From the NCBI GenBank assembly GCA_030156435.1, contig JASGMM010000003.1, positions 1 to 59,930 on the forward strand: a stretch of DNA of 59,930 nucleotides. Direction: 5' to 3'. This document shows, one piece after another, positions 6,430 through 12,754 of this stretch. The DNA is from Clostridiales bacterium (GTDB lineage: Bacteria > Bacillota > Clostridia > Mahellales > Mahellaceae). A program made the translations under genes and the position numbers. Numbering within the stretch: the first letter of the stretch is position 1; the number at the start of each line of letters is the position of its first letter. A model generated the notes under the pieces. The model did no database searches, was not told the origin of the DNA, and worked only from the letters and a program-made list of their open reading frames with translations.

Positions 6430-6528
6430 GTTTTGCTTATCGATGCCATAAGTTATCTTTATTTTACAATCCTGCTGCGATGCAGTATATTGTTTAATAA
6501 TTACTGCATAAACGGAGGATTTATTTTT

Positions 6529-7500
6529 ATGTTAATGGGTTTGATTATGACATTGCTCATCGCACTTGCATCTAAGCTGTTGGTAGGTTTACCTATACTT
6601 TCGGTGATGGGCACTATGGTTACCGCAATAGTATTGGGAATGATATGGAGGGCTGTGATCGGTGTGAAACAACAAGCCCAGGTCGGTATAGATTTTTCGG
6701 CAAAAAAATTATTGCGGTTAGGAATAATATTAATGGGGATACGCCTTGATATATCCGATATATTGGCTGCCGGCCCCAAGGTGGTATTAATGGCCGTATT
6801 GGTAATAAGCTTTGCTATGCTGCTGATACCGCGGTTGGGAAAGCGTTTCGGCGTAGATACGGTATTGGCTGTACTGGTGGCATCGGGTACTGCTATATGC
6901 GGAGCTGCGGCTATAGCCGGCGTAGCCCCTATGGTTAAAGCTGATGAGCAGCGCACAGCGGTATCCATAGCTATCATAGCCATACTTGGTACGGTTTTTA
7001 CTTTTGCCTATACGTTTTTGAATTCTGTCTTCACTATACCTGCATATACATACGGTATATTATCTGGTTCTACGCTGCATGAATTAGGACATGTTATAGC
7101 AGCTTCCTCAACGGGCGGGCAACAGAGTATGGATATAGCATTGATTATAAAGCTCACGCGAGTAGCGTTTCTGGTTCCTGTGGCTTTTATATTGGGCATA
7201 ATATTTATGGACAAAGACGACAGGAAGAATATAGGCTTCAGGGATCTGCCTATACCGTGGTTTGTATTGGGTTTTATAGCTTTTAGTATTATCAATACGA
7301 TTGGTATACTTTCTCCATCGGTCACTGATTTTTTTACTCAGGCCAGTGTGTTTATAATGACTATGGCTATGGCTGGTTTGGGCCTCAATGTCGATTTTAA
7401 TGCTTTTGGCAAAATGGGGGGACGAGCGCTGGGTATGGGAATAATCGGCTCTGTAGCGTTAAGTGTCTTTGGCGGTATCCTAACGATGTTACTGTTTTAA
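6529..7500 (+). CDS. YeiH/UPF0324 family membrane transporter (putative sulfate exporter)
   Basis: 323 residues with about ten membrane segments. Typical family text includes LLRLGIILMGIRLDISDI, VLVASGTAICGAAAIAG and a C-terminal AGLGLNVDFNAFGKMGGRAL. The family is annotated as putative sulfate exporter, although the substrate is poorly established. Start is ATG 6529, preceded by GGAGG (6514-6518); the longer open frame from 6433 lacks a ribosome-binding site. The 3' end overlaps the convergent LysR gene by 12 nt. In enterobacteria yeiH also neighbours a LysR regulator (yeiE), which supports a link but does not prove it. Confidence 0.9.
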   Translation: MLMGLIMTLLIALASKLLVGLPILSVMGTMVTAIVLGMIWRAVIGVKQQAQVGIDFSAKKLLRLGIILMGIRLDISDILAAGPKVVLMAVLVISFAMLLIPRLGKRFGVDTVLAVLVASGTAICGAAAIAGVAPMVKADEQRTAVSIAIIAILGTVFTFAYTFLNSVFTIPAYTYGILSGSTLHELGHVIAASSTGGQQSMDIALIIKLTRVAFLVPVAFILGIIFMDKDDRKNIGFRDLPIPWFVLGFIAFSIINTIGILSPSVTDFFTQASVFIMTMAMAGLGLNVDFNAFGKMGGRALGMGIIGSVALSVFGGILTMLLF

Positions 7501-8412
7501 GGGCATATCGATCAACAATTGTTTCCATTTAATGTTATGTACAAATTCAACGAATACTGCGGATGCTGGAGTTAAAGCTACATGAACAGGTAATAGAGTG
7601 TAAAAATATCGTCTCATGTCTAAACCTTTTATAGTAGCAGCTTTTAAAATTCCGGCTTCAATCTCTTTTATAACTGTACATTGCGATATTATGGAACAGC
7701 CTAAACCAGCCTCTACAATTTCTTTTATGGTCTGAGTGCTGCCCAATTCCATGGCTATATTGAACTGCTGCAGCTCTAAACCGGCTGCTTTCAATTGTAT
7801 TTCCATGATACGTCGGGTGCCTGAACCTGGCTCGCGCAGTATAAGCGGCATACTTTTGAGCTGCTCAAGCGATATGATATCGTCGGAAATCTGCTTATTG
7901 TTTGGTGATATTATAGCCACAAGTTGGTCTTCCATAAACGGCTTAAGCTGTAGATCAGGGTTGTCTACCGGTCCTTCTATCAATCCCACATCTATAGTTT
8001 TATTCAGCATTCGCTGTGATATATCATAGGTATTGGCTACCGAAAGGGCTATATTGATATTAGGATACATACGCTTGAATAATACCAGAGCTTTGGGTAT
8101 CACGTATTCCCCTATAGTTAAACTGGTCCCTATTGATAACGGTCCTGTAATGGTTTCTTTCATCTTCATTAAAGCCTGCTGGGATTGGCCATAAAGCGTT
8201 GCGATTTGTTCGGCATAGTGGCGTAAAACACGTCCGCTTTCGGTTAATGTTACTTCTTTATTGTTTCTTTCGAACAGCTTTGTGCCATAAAGGCTTTCCA
8301 GCGCTTGTATATTCATGCTGACGGCCGGTTGTGTCATATGCAGCGATTTTGCTGCGTTGGAAAAACTGTGATGACGGGCAACAGCTAAAAATATTTCCAA
8401 TTGATTATCCAT
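7489..8412 (-). CDS. LysR-family transcriptional regulator
   Basis: 307 residues. The N-terminal winged helix is typical: LEIFLAVARHHSFSNAAKSLHMTQPAVS, followed by IQALESLYGTKLFERNNKEV. The C-terminal part is a periplasmic-binding-protein-like effector domain (residues about 90-300, with REPGSGTRRIMEIQL), resembling the CysL/YeiE branch. I place the start at the ATG ending at 8412, with GAGGTG upstream in good spacing; a GTG nine bases earlier would overlap that site. It converges on the YeiH-type gene and is divergent from the ArsM-like operon. An ATC-N9-GAT palindrome in the operon promoter could be its binding site. Its true target is therefore open. Confidence 0.95.
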   Translation of the reverse strand: MDNQLEIFLAVARHHSFSNAAKSLHMTQPAVSMNIQALESLYGTKLFERNNKEVTLTESGRVLRHYAEQIATLYGQSQQALMKMKETITGPLSIGTSLTIGEYVIPKALVLFKRMYPNINIALSVANTYDISQRMLNKTIDVGLIEGPVDNPDLQLKPFMEDQLVAIISPNNKQISDDIISLEQLKSMPLILREPGSGTRRIMEIQLKAAGLELQQFNIAMELGSTQTIKEIVEAGLGCSIISQCTVIKEIEAGILKAATIKGLDMRRYFYTLLPVHVALTPASAVFVEFVHNIKWKQLLIDMPLKQ

Positions 8413-8492
8413 AAGGTTCACCTCAAAAAAAGATTTAACAATATTTTATTATATACCCGATCGATTAAGCAATAAAATTCTTTTCTTCATAC

Positions 8493-8521
8493 TTTACATT
8501 TATCACAATGGGTGATATACT
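8493..8521 (+). promoter_or_regulatory. Promoter with internal palindromic operator for the ArsM-like/peptide operon
   Basis: TTTACA (8493-8498) and TATACT (8516-8521) are separated by exactly 17 nt, giving a good sigma-A promoter. Between the two boxes, touching the -10, is a perfect 17-bp palindrome TATCACAATGGGTGATA (8501-8517). Its core ATC-N9-GAT (8502-8516) has the LysR-type T-N11-A form, and a LysR gene lies divergently 90 nt away. A regulator bound here would block RNA polymerase, so repression is more likely than activation at this position. Confidence 0.7.
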
Positions 8522-8581: not shown

Positions 8582-9220
8582 ATGGACATAAAAGAAGCTG
8601 TTAAACAACGCTATGCTGATGAGGCATGTTGCGACGACAATCTAAGCTGCGGCGGTCAAAATGTATACCTGGTCGACTTAAAGGCTGGGCAATGGCTGCT
8701 CGATATAGGCTGTGGCCGTGGCAGCGATGTGCTTAAAGCGGCTGCTCTGGTCGGTGAACAGGGCAAGGCCGTAGGGGTGGATCTCTCGCCGGATATGATA
8801 AAAGCGGCTGCCACAGCAGCGGAGCAACAAGGCGTGAGTAACGTTGAGTTTTATCAAGGCGATGTGGAAGCGTTGCCTTTGCCGGATAGCGTTTTCGATG
8901 CGGTTATAAGCGATTGTGCTATAAATCATGCACTGGATAAAAAGCGCGCTTATGCGGAAATATTTCGCGTATTAAAGCCGCAGGGCGTTATGGTAGTATC
9001 GGATGTGGTGGCGTTGGAGACGCTGCCTCAAGAGATAAAGGATGATCCGGCGGCATGGGCGGACTGTTTCGGTGGGGCCATAAGCGAAGAGGACTATATA
9101 GATGCTGTAAAAGCAGCAGGTTTTGCTGAAATAGATATGCTCAAACGTCGGGAGTACATCAAAAATGGATACAAGATGGCAAGTATTACCTTGAAAGCTG
9201 TAAAGGAGGTGATATCATGA
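8582..9220 (+). CDS. ArsM-like SAM-dependent methyltransferase
   Basis: 212 residues, class I methyltransferase. SAM loop: LLDIGCGRGSDV (residues 39-50); acidic residue after strand 2: VGVDLSPDM. Two cysteines sit where arsenite methyltransferases bind As(III): SDCAIN (Cys112) and WADCFGGA (Cys162). The N-terminus carries a further cluster, EACCDDNLSC (Cys16, 17, 23). This pattern is the arsenite methyltransferase (ArsM) one rather than that of a generic methyltransferase, but a different thiophilic or peptide substrate is possible. Its stop overlaps the start of the 34-residue peptide gene (ATGA), so the two are translationally coupled. No arsR, arsB or arsC gene is present in the window. 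Confidence 0.85.
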   Translation: MDIKEAVKQRYADEACCDDNLSCGGQNVYLVDLKAGQWLLDIGCGRGSDVLKAAALVGEQGKAVGVDLSPDMIKAAATAAEQQGVSNVEFYQGDVEALPLPDSVFDAVISDCAINHALDKKRAYAEIFRVLKPQGVMVVSDVVALETLPQEIKDDPAAWADCFGGAISEEDYIDAVKAAGFAEIDMLKRREYIKNGYKMASITLKAVKEVIS

Positions 9221-9321
9221 AGGCCATAACAAAGCAATCGAACGCTTGCTGCACACAGACCAAGGCAGTAGCTCAGTGCTGCTCCAAGTCTTCCAAGCTT
9301 ATGGCAGGTTGCCACGACTAA
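9217..9321 (+). CDS. 34-residue Cys-rich peptide, putative substrate of the adjacent radical SAM protein
   Basis: A short gene with a very strong ribosome-binding site (AAAGGAGGTGAT, about 9202-9213) whose ATG overlaps the methyltransferase stop. It encodes 34 residues with five Cys: Cys11-Cys12, Cys21-Cys22 and Cys32. The two pairs lie in a weak 10-residue repeat (NACCTQTKAV then AQCCSKSSKL). There is no signal peptide or membrane segment, and Lys residues are plentiful. The SNACCT segment looks like the Cys-pair segment near the N-terminus of bacterial ArsM proteins as I remember them. Position before a radical SAM/SPASM gene, with an attenuator between, suggests a ribosomally made precursor peptide. 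A metallothionein-like chelator is the main alternative. Confidence 0.75.
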   Translation: MKAITKQSNACCTQTKAVAQCCSKSSKLMAGCHD

Positions 9322-9332
9322 TTTACGTTATT

Positions 9333-9387
9333 GCGGCCGGAGCGGCTTCAAAATCATCGCTGCGGCCGCCACCTTTTTAAGTTTTTT
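9333..9387 (+). terminator. Hairpin plus T-run between the peptide gene and the radical SAM gene (probable attenuator)
   Basis: GCGGCCGGAGC (9333-9343) pairs with GCTGCGGCCGC (9359-9369), 10 of 11 positions matching, around a 15-nt loop. T-tracts follow at 9374-9378 and 9382-9387. It lies inside an otherwise continuous operon. The next ribosome-binding site AGGAGG (9388-9393) begins directly after the T-run. A partial terminator here would yield much more peptide mRNA than maturase mRNA, as is common in peptide natural-product operons. Confidence 0.75.
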
Positions 9388-9398
9388 AGGAGGATGAT

Positions 9399-10715
9399 AT
9401 GTACTGGAGCAAATACAATGTTGTGATACCGCATGGAGATAAATATGCTTTAATAAATCCATTGGCAGGCAGCTTTGATATCGCTGATAAAGATGAGATA
9501 CAAGCGCTCAGGGATGGCATAGCCGATATGGATCTTATGGATTATGCTGTATCGCGCGGTTATATATATGATGACGAGCAACAAGAGAAGGCGGCCTTGG
9601 ATGCGGCATACAGCGAATTTCAGGATATAATGGCGACTTCTCAAACCCAGGTATTATTGATACCGACCTATGACTGTAACTTCTCGTGTATATATTGTTA
9701 TGAAAGCGGCGTGGCTGGCAGGAGCGGTATCATAAGCCGCGAGGCTGTAGACGCCTTCTTTGATGATATGGAGTATAGGCTGGGCGATGAAGCGGTTAGA
9801 CCGTATATAACCCTGTTTGGCGGTGAGCCGTTACTCAACCGTCCGGGGCAGAAGGATATTATTGCTTATACAATAGACAAGGCAGCCGATAATGCTTATG
9901 AGATAGCCGTAGTGACAAATGGTTATTATCTGGCGGATTATTTGGATATATTATCTCGAGCACATATAAGGGAAATCCAAGTAACCTTGGACGGGCCGCC
10001 TGAAGTCCACAACCGCCGAAGGCGTCTTAAGGGCGGGCAGGACAGCTTCGATACCATTATGGAAGGCATAGCGGCGGCTATAGATAAAGGCATGCCCATA
10101 AACCTGCGCGTGGTTACTGATAAAGATAATATAAACGATTTGCCTCGTTTAGCGGATATATTGGAGCATAGGGGCTGGTTGGATTTGCCGCCGGAGCGTT
10201 TTAAGGTGCAAATCGGACGCAACTACGATCCGTTTAATTGTTTCGGAAATAACGACAGCCTTATGGACAGGGCGCAGTTATGGGCGGATTACACCGAGCT
10301 ATCCCATCAATATCCTATATTGAAGAAGTTTCATCAACCCGAATTCAAGGGCTTGAAGCAAGCTATCGAAACCGGCAGCATGTACGCGCCTACATTTGAT
10401 ACGTGCCCTGCCGGCAAGAAAGAATGGGTATACGATTTATATGGAGATATATATGGCTGTACCGCAGCTAGCGGTAGAGAGGAATATAAATTGGGAACAT
10501 ACTTCCCTGAGTCGAAGATATTTGAAGATAGATTGGAACCATGGCGCCGTCGTGATATCCTTCACATAGAACAATGTGCATCCTGTCCTGTAGGTATGGT
10601 ATGCGGAGGGGGATGCGGTGTCATGGCTCACCAGAGGTCTGGGGAGGTACTGGCGCCCGATTGTGAACCCATAGCCGATATATGGGAATCGGCATTAAAA
10701 TATTACGATATATGA
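9399..10715 (+). CDS. Radical SAM/SPASM domain protein, putative peptide maturase
   Basis: 438 residues. Residues 1-80 form an N-terminal region of the sort seen in peptide-modifying radical SAM enzymes (YNVVIPHGDKYALINPLAG). The radical SAM cluster motif is CNFSCIYC (Cys93, 97, 100), followed by LFGGEPLL and TLDGPPEVHNRRR. A C-terminal SPASM region (about residues 340-415) supplies Cys ligands for auxiliary iron-sulfur clusters: YGCTAASG, CASCPVGMVCGGGCG and a last Cys in PDCEPI. SPASM enzymes typically modify peptides, for example by thioether formation. The preceding 34-residue Cys-rich product is the obvious candidate substrate. I cannot place the protein in a named maturase subfamily. 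Confidence 0.9.
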   Translation: MYWSKYNVVIPHGDKYALINPLAGSFDIADKDEIQALRDGIADMDLMDYAVSRGYIYDDEQQEKAALDAAYSEFQDIMATSQTQVLLIPTYDCNFSCIYCYESGVAGRSGIISREAVDAFFDDMEYRLGDEAVRPYITLFGGEPLLNRPGQKDIIAYTIDKAADNAYEIAVVTNGYYLADYLDILSRAHIREIQVTLDGPPEVHNRRRRLKGGQDSFDTIMEGIAAAIDKGMPINLRVVTDKDNINDLPRLADILEHRGWLDLPPERFKVQIGRNYDPFNCFGNNDSLMDRAQLWADYTELSHQYPILKKFHQPEFKGLKQAIETGSMYAPTFDTCPAGKKEWVYDLYGDIYGCTAASGREEYKLGTYFPESKIFEDRLEPWRRRDILHIEQCASCPVGMVCGGGCGVMAHQRSGEVLAPDCEPIADIWESALKYYDI

Positions 10716-10728
10716 CAGGAGGCTTAAT

Positions 10729-11997
10729 ATGGTTAGAGAAATAAACGCGGATCAATTTGATGACGTGGTTTTAAAGGCCCAAAAACCGGTTTTAGTGGAT
10801 TTCTACTCGAATGATTGCCCGCCTTGTGCGGCATTAAAACCCATATTCCACCGTTTGGCCGAAGTTTACGGCGAGTATATGGATTTTGTGGAGATACACA
10901 GACAGGACAATAAACAACTTGCACTGAGCTTAAATGTTAAAAGCAGCCCCACGCTATTATTTTACAAAAATGGTCAAGAAGTTAATGACAGGTTGAATGG
11001 CTATATAAGTAAACCGATGTTGCGCAAGGCCATAGAAAATGTGACCGGCGTATCGTTGCTGGATAAACCGCCTAAAGAAATCGACTGCGATGTGCTTATA
11101 CTTGGAGGCGGCCCTGCCGGGTTATCGGCCGCTTTATATGCAGCCCGATCAGGCTTGGATACCGTATTGGTGGAGCAGGACCTTATAGGCGGCCAGGCGG
11201 CCAAAACCTTCATTATAGAGAATTACCCGGGTACCGACGGCCCTATAGAAGGCAAAACTCTCACAGGCCATATGGCTGATCAGGCGCGCAGTTTCGGAGC
11301 GAGATTGGAGGACCTTAAGGAGGTGCTGGATGTAAATCTGGATCCATCGCGCCGTTATGTTCGCACAGAGGATACGCTTTATCGTCCTAAGGCCGTTGTA
11401 ATAGCCACGGGCGCTGAGCCGCGCAAGTTGCCGGCGACAGGTGAGGATGTATTCCGCGGAAAGGGTATACACTATTGTGCCATATGTGACGGGGCTATGT
11501 ACGAAGGCCGGCATGTGGCGGTGATAGGAGGAGGTAATTCGGCGCTGCAGGAGGCTCTATACCTGTCCCGTATAGCCGAGCGCGTGACTATAATACATGA
11601 ATTCGATGATTTTCAGGGTACAAAGATAGCGCAAGAAAAGGTCTTTAGCACGCCCAATATAGATGTCATATGGCATTCACATGCTATAGAAGTACTGGGC
11701 GATGGCATGGTAAACGGCCTTAAGTTGAAAAACCTCAGCAACGGCGAAATAACTTCAATACCGATAGACGGCGTTTTTGTGTACATCGGTACCGCGCCTC
11801 ACACCGATATGTTCAAAGGACAGATCGCCATGGATAAGTACGGTTATATGCTAGCCGGCGAGGATATGAAAACGGATGTAAGCGGTGTATTTGCGGCCGG
11901 AGATGTGAGGCAAAAAGCCGTACGGCAGGTGGCTACTGCTGTGGGCGATGGCGCTATAGCAGCCATAAACGCCGAGAGATATTTAAACGAGGTATGA
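10729..11997 (+). CDS. Thioredoxin-thioredoxin reductase fusion
   Basis: 422 residues with two domains. Residues 1-105 are a thioredoxin fold with active site NDCPPC (Cys30, Cys33), where the usual WCGPC has lost its Trp and Gly. Residues about 118-420 are a thioredoxin-reductase-like flavoprotein: FAD loop LGGGPAGLSA (126-131), redox pair CAICD (Cys250, Cys253), second loop IGGGNSAL (267-272) and C-terminal FAAGDVR. The basic NADPH-binding stretch expected after the second loop (HRRxxFR) is replaced by HEFDDFQGT, so the electron donor may not be NADPH. AGGAGG precedes the start. In the operon it probably supplies or removes electrons at thiols of the peptide or its maturase. Confidence 0.92.
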   Translation: MVREINADQFDDVVLKAQKPVLVDFYSNDCPPCAALKPIFHRLAEVYGEYMDFVEIHRQDNKQLALSLNVKSSPTLLFYKNGQEVNDRLNGYISKPMLRKAIENVTGVSLLDKPPKEIDCDVLILGGGPAGLSAALYAARSGLDTVLVEQDLIGGQAAKTFIIENYPGTDGPIEGKTLTGHMADQARSFGARLEDLKEVLDVNLDPSRRYVRTEDTLYRPKAVVIATGAEPRKLPATGEDVFRGKGIHYCAICDGAMYEGRHVAVIGGGNSALQEALYLSRIAERVTIIHEFDDFQGTKIAQEKVFSTPNIDVIWHSHAIEVLGDGMVNGLKLKNLSNGEITSIPIDGVFVYIGTAPHTDMFKGQIAMDKYGYMLAGEDMKTDVSGVFAAGDVRQKAVRQVATAVGDGAIAAINAERYLNEV

Positions 11998-12001
11998 TGA
12001 G

Positions 12002-12754
12002 ATGGCTATGGATATACAAAACGATGCCTGCGGCAGTGCGAGCTGTTGCTGCCAGGATGAGCAGATAAAGACCACCGATTGCATGGTATGCGGGCATCCA
12101 TTGATCTATTCATCGCAGCCTATCGTTATGGCGTGCAGCTATTGCGGCAAAGAGCAGCAAGCGTATATTTTCTGCCCGGATGGGCATTACGTATGCGATG
12201 AGTGCCATGCCAAGGACAGCCTGACCATTATAAAAGAATATTGCATTTCCAGCACTACTGCAAATCCGATGGAATTAGCTGAAACCATCATGGCCGATAT
12301 TCGCATACCGATGCATGGTCCGGAACATCACGCTCTGGTACCTGCTGTACTGGTGGCAGCTTACAGGAATTTGACCGGTAAGGTAAGCGATAACGATATA
12401 GAGCAGGCGTTGGAGCGAGGCAGCGGCGTGCCGGGCGGAGCTTGCGGTTACTATGGCGCTTGCGGAGCCGCTGTCGGTTTGGGCGTGGCTGTCAGCGTTA
12501 TATTCAAAGCCACGCCGCTTACGCCGCTGAAGCGGTCTCATGCTAACAGGATTACCGCTCGTGCGTTGGATGCCATAGCCGACGACGGGGGTGCTCGCTG
12601 CTGCAAACGCGCGGTAAGGCGGGCGATAGAACAGGCTGTGATCTATTTCAAGGATGAATTGAAAATAGAGTTCCCGCTTTTTGACAGCCCGCATAACTGC
12701 ATTCACAGCGTGCGTAACAGAGAATGCCTGGCAAGATGCGTTTATAAGAATTGA
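12002..12754 (+). CDS. DUF5714 domain protein with Cys-rich N-terminal zinc-knuckle region
   Basis: 250 residues. The first 70 hold 13 Cys: a cluster ACGSASCCCQDE (Cys10, 15-17), then CMVC (27/30), CSYC (45/48), a CPDGH pair and CDEC (65/68), which could form zinc sites. The rest matches my recollection of DUF5714: MHGPEHHALVPAVLVAAYRN, then PGGACGYYGACGAAVGLGVA and a C-terminal part with RCCKR and a Cys-containing tail. Function is unknown. It begins 4 nt after the reductase fusion and ends the operon. The Cys-run near its N-terminus echoes those of the methyltransferase and the peptide, suggesting a shared metal or thiol chemistry. Confidence 0.82.
   Translation: MAMDIQNDACGSASCCCQDEQIKTTDCMVCGHPLIYSSQPIVMACSYCGKEQQAYIFCPDGHYVCDECHAKDSLTIIKEYCISSTTANPMELAETIMADIRIPMHGPEHHALVPAVLVAAYRNLTGKVSDNDIEQALERGSGVPGGACGYYGACGAAVGLGVAVSVIFKATPLTPLKRSHANRITARALDAIADDGGARCCKRAVRRAIEQAVIYFKDELKIEFPLFDSPHNCIHSVRNRECLARCVYKN

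Follow-up and report, generated by a model that had tools for sequence, protein, structure and literature searches.

The window analysed here, a 59,930-nucleotide stretch of contig JASGMM010000003.1 from a Clostridiales bacterium (GenBank assembly GCA_030156435.1), raises the question of what a gene for a short, Cys-rich peptide is doing between genes for an ArsM-like methyltransferase and a radical S-adenosylmethionine (SAM)/SPASM enzyme, followed by genes for a thioredoxin-thioredoxin reductase (Trx-TrxR) fusion and a DUF5714 protein. A previous reading of the DNA alone (the sequence-only reading) had proposed that these genes form a five-gene operon in which the radical SAM enzyme modifies the peptide. 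An open reading frame (ORF) check bore out the coordinates of the five genes, all on the + strand of the window, and the two boundaries described as 4 nucleotides or less were measured as a 4-nucleotide overlap between the methyltransferase and peptide ORFs and a 4-nucleotide gap between the Trx-TrxR and DUF5714 genes. Pfam and NCBIfam profile searches agreed with the gene classes given to the cassette enzymes.

A conserved peptide with an invariant core and its radical SAM partner

The candidate precursor peptide (9217..9321, +) has 34 residues, five of them Cys (MKAITKQSNACCTQTKAVAQCCSKSSKLMAGCHD), is preceded by a strong Shine-Dalgarno sequence (AAAGGAGG) and ends in a 16-residue core (AQCCSKSSKLMAGCHD; 9271..9318, +). 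We compared it across a named locus set, the best 80 of 432 relatives, which spans Bacillota, Spirochaetota, Bacteroidota, Myxococcota, Bdellovibrionota and Margulisiibacteriota. The same peptide family was present in 77/77 loci whose contig covers the place, while contigs L084, L091 and L093 start inside the enzyme gene and do not cover it. Of the 80 sequences examined, which were those of the window and L046-L124, 74 contained the peptide as a whole ORF; in L082 and L109 it was visible in six-frame translation, and in L059 it was cut off after "...AGCHN*". The short gene is thus a conserved partner of homologous enzymes, the observation on which the earlier proposal had staked itself.

The upstream regions of the orthologues carry a short ORF ending in ...AQCCSK......GCHD, and the core consensus is A-Q-C-C-[AS]-K-x-[ST]-x-x-x-x-G-C-H-[DN]-COOH. 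The residues A, Q, C, C, K, G, C and H did not vary among 61 distinct core sequences, nor did their spacing, and the end residue was D in 58 and N in 3. For C, C, K, G, C and H, which belonged to the search pattern, the invariance is in part built in; the pattern did not prescribe A, Q, the spacing or the terminal residue. While the five Cys originally highlighted are indeed present in the window peptide, only three of them are universal in the family. Synonymous codons in the core vary freely among relatives.

Because sampling of the loci had started from the enzyme, we searched the core DNA pattern alone in 398 Bacillota genomes, the window's own included. This search gave 20 hits, one per genome; the 20 genomes coincide with those that have a full-length enzyme, and the 378 others gave no hit. 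Each hit lay just upstream of the radical SAM gene, and a reversed control pattern gave no hits (Fisher p 4e-34 for core-enzyme co-occurrence, although all co-occurrence p-values given here ignore the relatedness of the genomes). The 20 genomes, own genome counted, are those with a radical SAM orthologue at 47-62% identity, besides which the sample held one related enzyme at 36% identity and one remnant. In one genome, methyltransferase and radical SAM gene fragments are joined in a cassette remnant (L044:8101-9006). Two findings confirm the peptide, at the level of sequence, as a real conserved family rather than a chance ORF: its core is kept in six phyla while the synonymous codons change freely, and a search with the core pattern by itself singles out the very genomes that have the enzyme. 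Membership of a curated family was rejected, as the peptide gave no match above noise in Pfam, NCBIfam or PHROGs.

The enzyme beside it (9399..10715, +) combines a radical SAM domain (Pfam E 5e-21) with a SPASM domain and an N-terminal domain resembling a recognition element of ribosomally synthesized and post-translationally modified peptides (RiPPs), the RRE. Both the radical SAM CX3CX2C motif (C93, C97, C100) and the complete set of seven SPASM Cys (C336, C354, C393, C396, C402, C406, C422) are invariant in the alignment, and the SPASM model TIGR04085 scores above its cut-off in the homologue L109. An AlphaFold2 model of the L058 homologue, in which the enzyme is fused to DUF5714 (mean predicted local distance difference test score, pLDDT, 90.8), starts with a beta3-alpha3 unit that is likely an RRE. 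The closest solved structure to this model was CteB (5wgg, E 4e-16), matched over most of its length, and an anaerobic sulfatase maturase, TigE, SuiB and ChlB were also near. The nearest profiles of the enzyme are likewise peptide maturases (CefB, Clo7bot, TIGR04463 and PapB), and yet the NCBIfam models for CefB, Clo7bot, PapB, SCIFF, TIGR04463, CcpM, CbpB and geopeptides all scored far below cut-off, the best being CefB with 165 bits against a cut-off of 600. Taken together, the pairing of this enzyme as maturase with the peptide as precursor is very probable.

A related enzyme with 33-36% identity in genome G125 (L043:8179-9582) lies beside a different Cys-containing small ORF (ending ...VTCGMICSPYCVKSTPS), and from reading its sequence we take the ORF downstream to be ABC-exporter-like. 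These three genes could constitute a further RiPP system, an arrangement that is as expected for a RiPP maturase.

Partners of the peptide-enzyme pair

The methyltransferase, peptide, radical SAM enzyme and Trx-TrxR recur together; their order differs between loci, and in L089 and L090 they are even divided between the two strands. The methyltransferase was found in every locus but five, whose contigs end nearby. Under a strict threshold, the Trx-TrxR fusion occurred in 20/20 system genomes compared with 6/378 others, although it is not local in nine loci; one of these genomes, G173 (the L054 isolate), has it on a different contig. Some Myxococcota-like loci have Trx and TrxR as two adjacent ORFs. 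Since DUF5714 is missing from the branch whose peptides have three Cys and also occurs independently elsewhere, the obligate set is these four genes, with DUF5714 as an accessory. The proposed five-gene unit therefore holds for four of its members.

The methyltransferase (8582..9220, +) is a short ArsM-like SAM-dependent enzyme of ~212 residues (family median 215) that lacks the ArsM C-terminal domain; full-length solved ArsM chains have 377-387 residues. Its closest relatives in the PDB are ArsM crystal structures (5evj at E 9e-28). The sequence-only reading had picked out an ArsM-type Cys pair; the enzyme in fact has a triad, C23 (in an LSCG motif), C112 and C162, kept in 70/71 methyltransferase sequences. 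In the 5evj and 4kw7 alignments, C112 and C162 each pair directly with an ArsM Cys, while C23 falls outside the aligned part. We take the functional Cys triad of CmArsM to be C72, C174 and C224 and, from the resemblance of the motif, C23 to be the equivalent of C72.

In the fusion (10729..11997, +), thioredoxin (C30-x2-C33) is joined to thioredoxin reductase (C250-x2-C253), as identified by Pfam and NCBIfam matches and the conserved Cys pairs. One Bacillota family (L145-L150) has a Trx-TrxR fusion but no peptide cassette, and there the fusion has, in several cases, a response-regulator/sensor-like pair and small ORFs that look exported close by.

The accessory DUF5714 protein (12002..12754, +; Pfam PF18978, E 1.9e-61) has a zinc-ribbon-like N-terminus and a helical domain, with HGxEH, GGxCGxxGxC, CCK and a C-terminal Cys invariant in the alignment. 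In at least 13 loci it forms the C-terminal part of a fusion with the radical SAM enzyme, and in others, including the window, it is encoded by a neighbouring gene. DUF5714 was found in 17/20 system genomes compared with 30/378 others (p 8e-15), counting genes located elsewhere in the genome, and was missing from 9/9 sampled genomes in which the peptide has no extra CC pair at its N-terminus. Both DUF5714 and this pair occurred in 21 loci, and DUF5714 without the pair in none; these data are suggestive of a tie between the two, which is inseparable from shared ancestry on the tree. A structural model of DUF5714 (pLDDT 82) had no match in the PDB (best E 1.1), and the contexts of stand-alone DUF5714 genes were mixed and uninformative. 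One DUF5714 homologue (L134; G062:C1:473360-473719) has two in-frame TGA codons and is possibly a double selenoprotein or a broken gene.

Regulatory sequences, flanking genes and selenium

Upstream of the cassette, a consensus scan located a sigma-70-like promoter with an extended -10 (TTTACA-17-TATACT; 8493..8521, +), which is overlapped by the palindrome TATCAC-N5-GTGATA (8501-8517), a possible operator. Of the palindromic promoter described previously, the overlap stands, whereas the promoter itself is suggestive only, as the count of promoter-like sites in the region is close to the chance level. The internal hairpin described in the same reading is better grounded: a GC-rich hairpin between the precursor and maturase genes (9333..9369, +) has a folding energy of -27.8 kcal/mol (z -3.0), and GC-rich hairpins occur at the same position, the gap between the peptide and radical SAM genes, in most Bacillota relatives. 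An Rfam search gave no match.

In a set of 88 genes immediately next to the cassette, DUF1847 (4) and DUF456 (3) were the only families matched by more than two members, and no exporter, protease, immunity gene or regulator recurred, consistent with the earlier remark that the cassette has no exporter or protease. In several lineages a DUF1847 gene sits between the radical SAM and Trx-TrxR genes (L120:2185-2769, L087:9327-9878, L100:9280-9849), and in two Bacteroidales loci a TonB-dependent receptor gene sits between the methyltransferase and the peptide (L118:3329-5629 by a Pfam hit, L121:5297-7579 by membership of the same cluster). A plasmid search found no relative.

Selenium dependence was considered and rejected. 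No selenocysteine was found in the window proteins, and selD above cut-off was absent from the window genome (99.6% complete) and from three other system genomes, so selenium is not required. Divergent from the cassette in the window is a LysR regulator gene (7489-8421, -), whose 3' end overlaps a YeiH-type transporter gene (6433-7500, +). The LysR protein passes the threshold of a "selenium metabolism-associated LysR" model, even though selD is lacking in the window genome.

What the cassette may do

Judged by its anatomy, the cassette is best placed with the radical SAM/SPASM RiPP systems, whose testable defining features were found in it. It shares a SPASM maturase with an RRE-like N-terminus beside a short Cys precursor with the SCIFF/CteB, PapB ranthipeptide, Clo7bot, CefB Cys-every-fifth and TIGR04463 systems; in contrast with them, its enzyme scores far below the curated cut-offs, its precursor falls in no family, and it has an obligate ArsM-like methyltransferase and Trx-TrxR, without exporter or protease. 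The methyltransferase shares a Rossmann domain and three functional Cys with the ArsM/AS3MT arsenite methyltransferases, from which it differs in its length, its missing C-terminal domain, an INH motif and its constant association with a peptide-maturase pair. Judging in part by model names, Trs-type selenoprotein cassettes likewise combine a methyltransferase (DVU_1556) with a radical SAM protein (the selenoprotein TrsS) and redox proteins, among others; we know of no precursor peptide in them. The window methyltransferase matches NF045667 at E 1e-27, but with 97 bits against a cut-off of 155, and the cassette differs from the Trs type in not requiring selenium. The MbdU metal-binding double selenoprotein and the Methyltransferase/UXPK-star double selenoprotein correspond to NF045648 and NF047649 (PMC13188914). 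DUF5714 and the methyltransferase each resemble one of these, with scores far below cut-off, whereas both cassette counterparts are Cys proteins in a peptide cassette. The sequence-only reading knew of no described system with this set of genes, and we found no description of the AQCCSK/AQCCAK motif, DUF5714 or a RiPP-ArsM gene set in a collection of 5.39 million open-access papers (subscription papers and preprints were not covered).

In the model that we favour, the enzyme would bind the leader of the short peptide via its RRE-like domain and modify the invariant core, probably at Cys, with a thioether or related linkage by analogy with its CteB, PapB and TIGR04463 relatives. DUF5714 may support the modification step or metal delivery. 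The product, a dedicated thiol ligand, would stay inside the cell and use its CC...GCHD end to offer the ArsM-like methyltransferase a soft trivalent metalloid, most likely As(III). Thiols or disulfides formed during turnover would be re-reduced by Trx-TrxR. A trivalent metalloid is favoured because of the three invariant thiols and the ArsM Cys triad. Several observations weigh against this model. The methyltransferase reached 201 bits (E 2.5e-59) with the NCBIfam arsenite methyltransferase model PRK11873, compared with a cut-off of 263. Since it has INH where solved ArsM proteins have INL or CNL and is missing the ArsM C-terminal domain, its substrate may have shifted. Among the 88 flanking genes, no ars genes (arsR, efflux pump or arsenate reductase) recurred, with ArsP_1 in two members only; membership of an ars operon was therefore rejected, the case for arsenic comes from the methyltransferase alone, and the missing ars context calls for caution about the metalloid. 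As a whole, a RiPP maturase, an intracellular thiol peptide and a metalloid step make up a tentative model, somewhat more doubtful than probable. Its boldest form, in which the matured peptide is a dedicated carrier or cofactor on which the ArsM-like enzyme methylates arsenic or another metalloid to give a peptide-bound organometalloid, is possible but on the unlikely side.

The main rival dispenses with the metalloid. In the biosynthesis of pyrroloquinoline quinone (PQQ) and mycofactocin, a SPASM enzyme acts on the conserved C-terminal core of a tiny precursor to yield an intracellular cofactor, and the cassette shares this combination of enzyme and precursor, although its core is different, with three conserved Cys, and it has no dedicated peptidase but an ArsM-like methyltransferase. 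The peptide could accordingly give rise to a redox or thiol cofactor that the methyltransferase modifies by S-, N- or carboxyl methylation and Trx-TrxR recharges. Such a cofactor would fit a core that hardly changes among six phyla and sits at the very C-terminus, the near-obligate Trx-TrxR, and the lack of a recurring exporter or ars gene nearby; a plain thiol or amine methyltransferase, however, would not need all three ArsM Cys, yet these are kept, and we consider this explanation unlikely, if only slightly more so than the organometalloid. The three invariant Cys, His and Asp of the peptide, the Cys- and His-rich DUF5714 and the DUF1847 genes in some loci would also suit a role of the peptide in chaperoning or buffering a different soft metal (Hg, Cu, Cd, Sb or Bi), with the ArsM-like enzyme detoxifying that element, but neither efflux pumps nor regulators for metals recur next to the cassette, making this distinctly improbable. 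More improbable still is an ordinary exported RiPP such as a bacteriocin or signal: the maturase superfamily is rich in such products and the related L043 enzyme adjoins the exporter-like ORF, but no exporter, protease or immunity gene recurs, and the core is almost unvarying across phyla, unlike those of bacteriocins. Finally, DUF5714 and Trx-TrxR are each found on their own in other genomes, as they might be if genes with unrelated roles merely shared a transcript, but the counts already contradict this highly improbable explanation: peptide and enzyme co-occur without exception, the four core genes recur as a set in varying order and strand, and the enzyme can be fused to DUF5714.

With the cassette comes a widespread precursor-maturase family whose core hardly varies, which points to a conserved role in the cell and not to a chemical weapon. 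The cassette also links the peptide chemistry of radical SAM enzymes with a thioredoxin system and a methyltransferase of ArsM type, and it places DUF5714, which has neither an assigned function nor a solved fold, in a concrete setting. Direct tests are feasible, as the locus is present in a strain of Thermoanaerobacterium saccharolyticum (L047), a genetically tractable species. If the favoured model holds in its boldest form, a peptide-bound organometalloid would be biology without earlier description, spread over at least six bacterial phyla.

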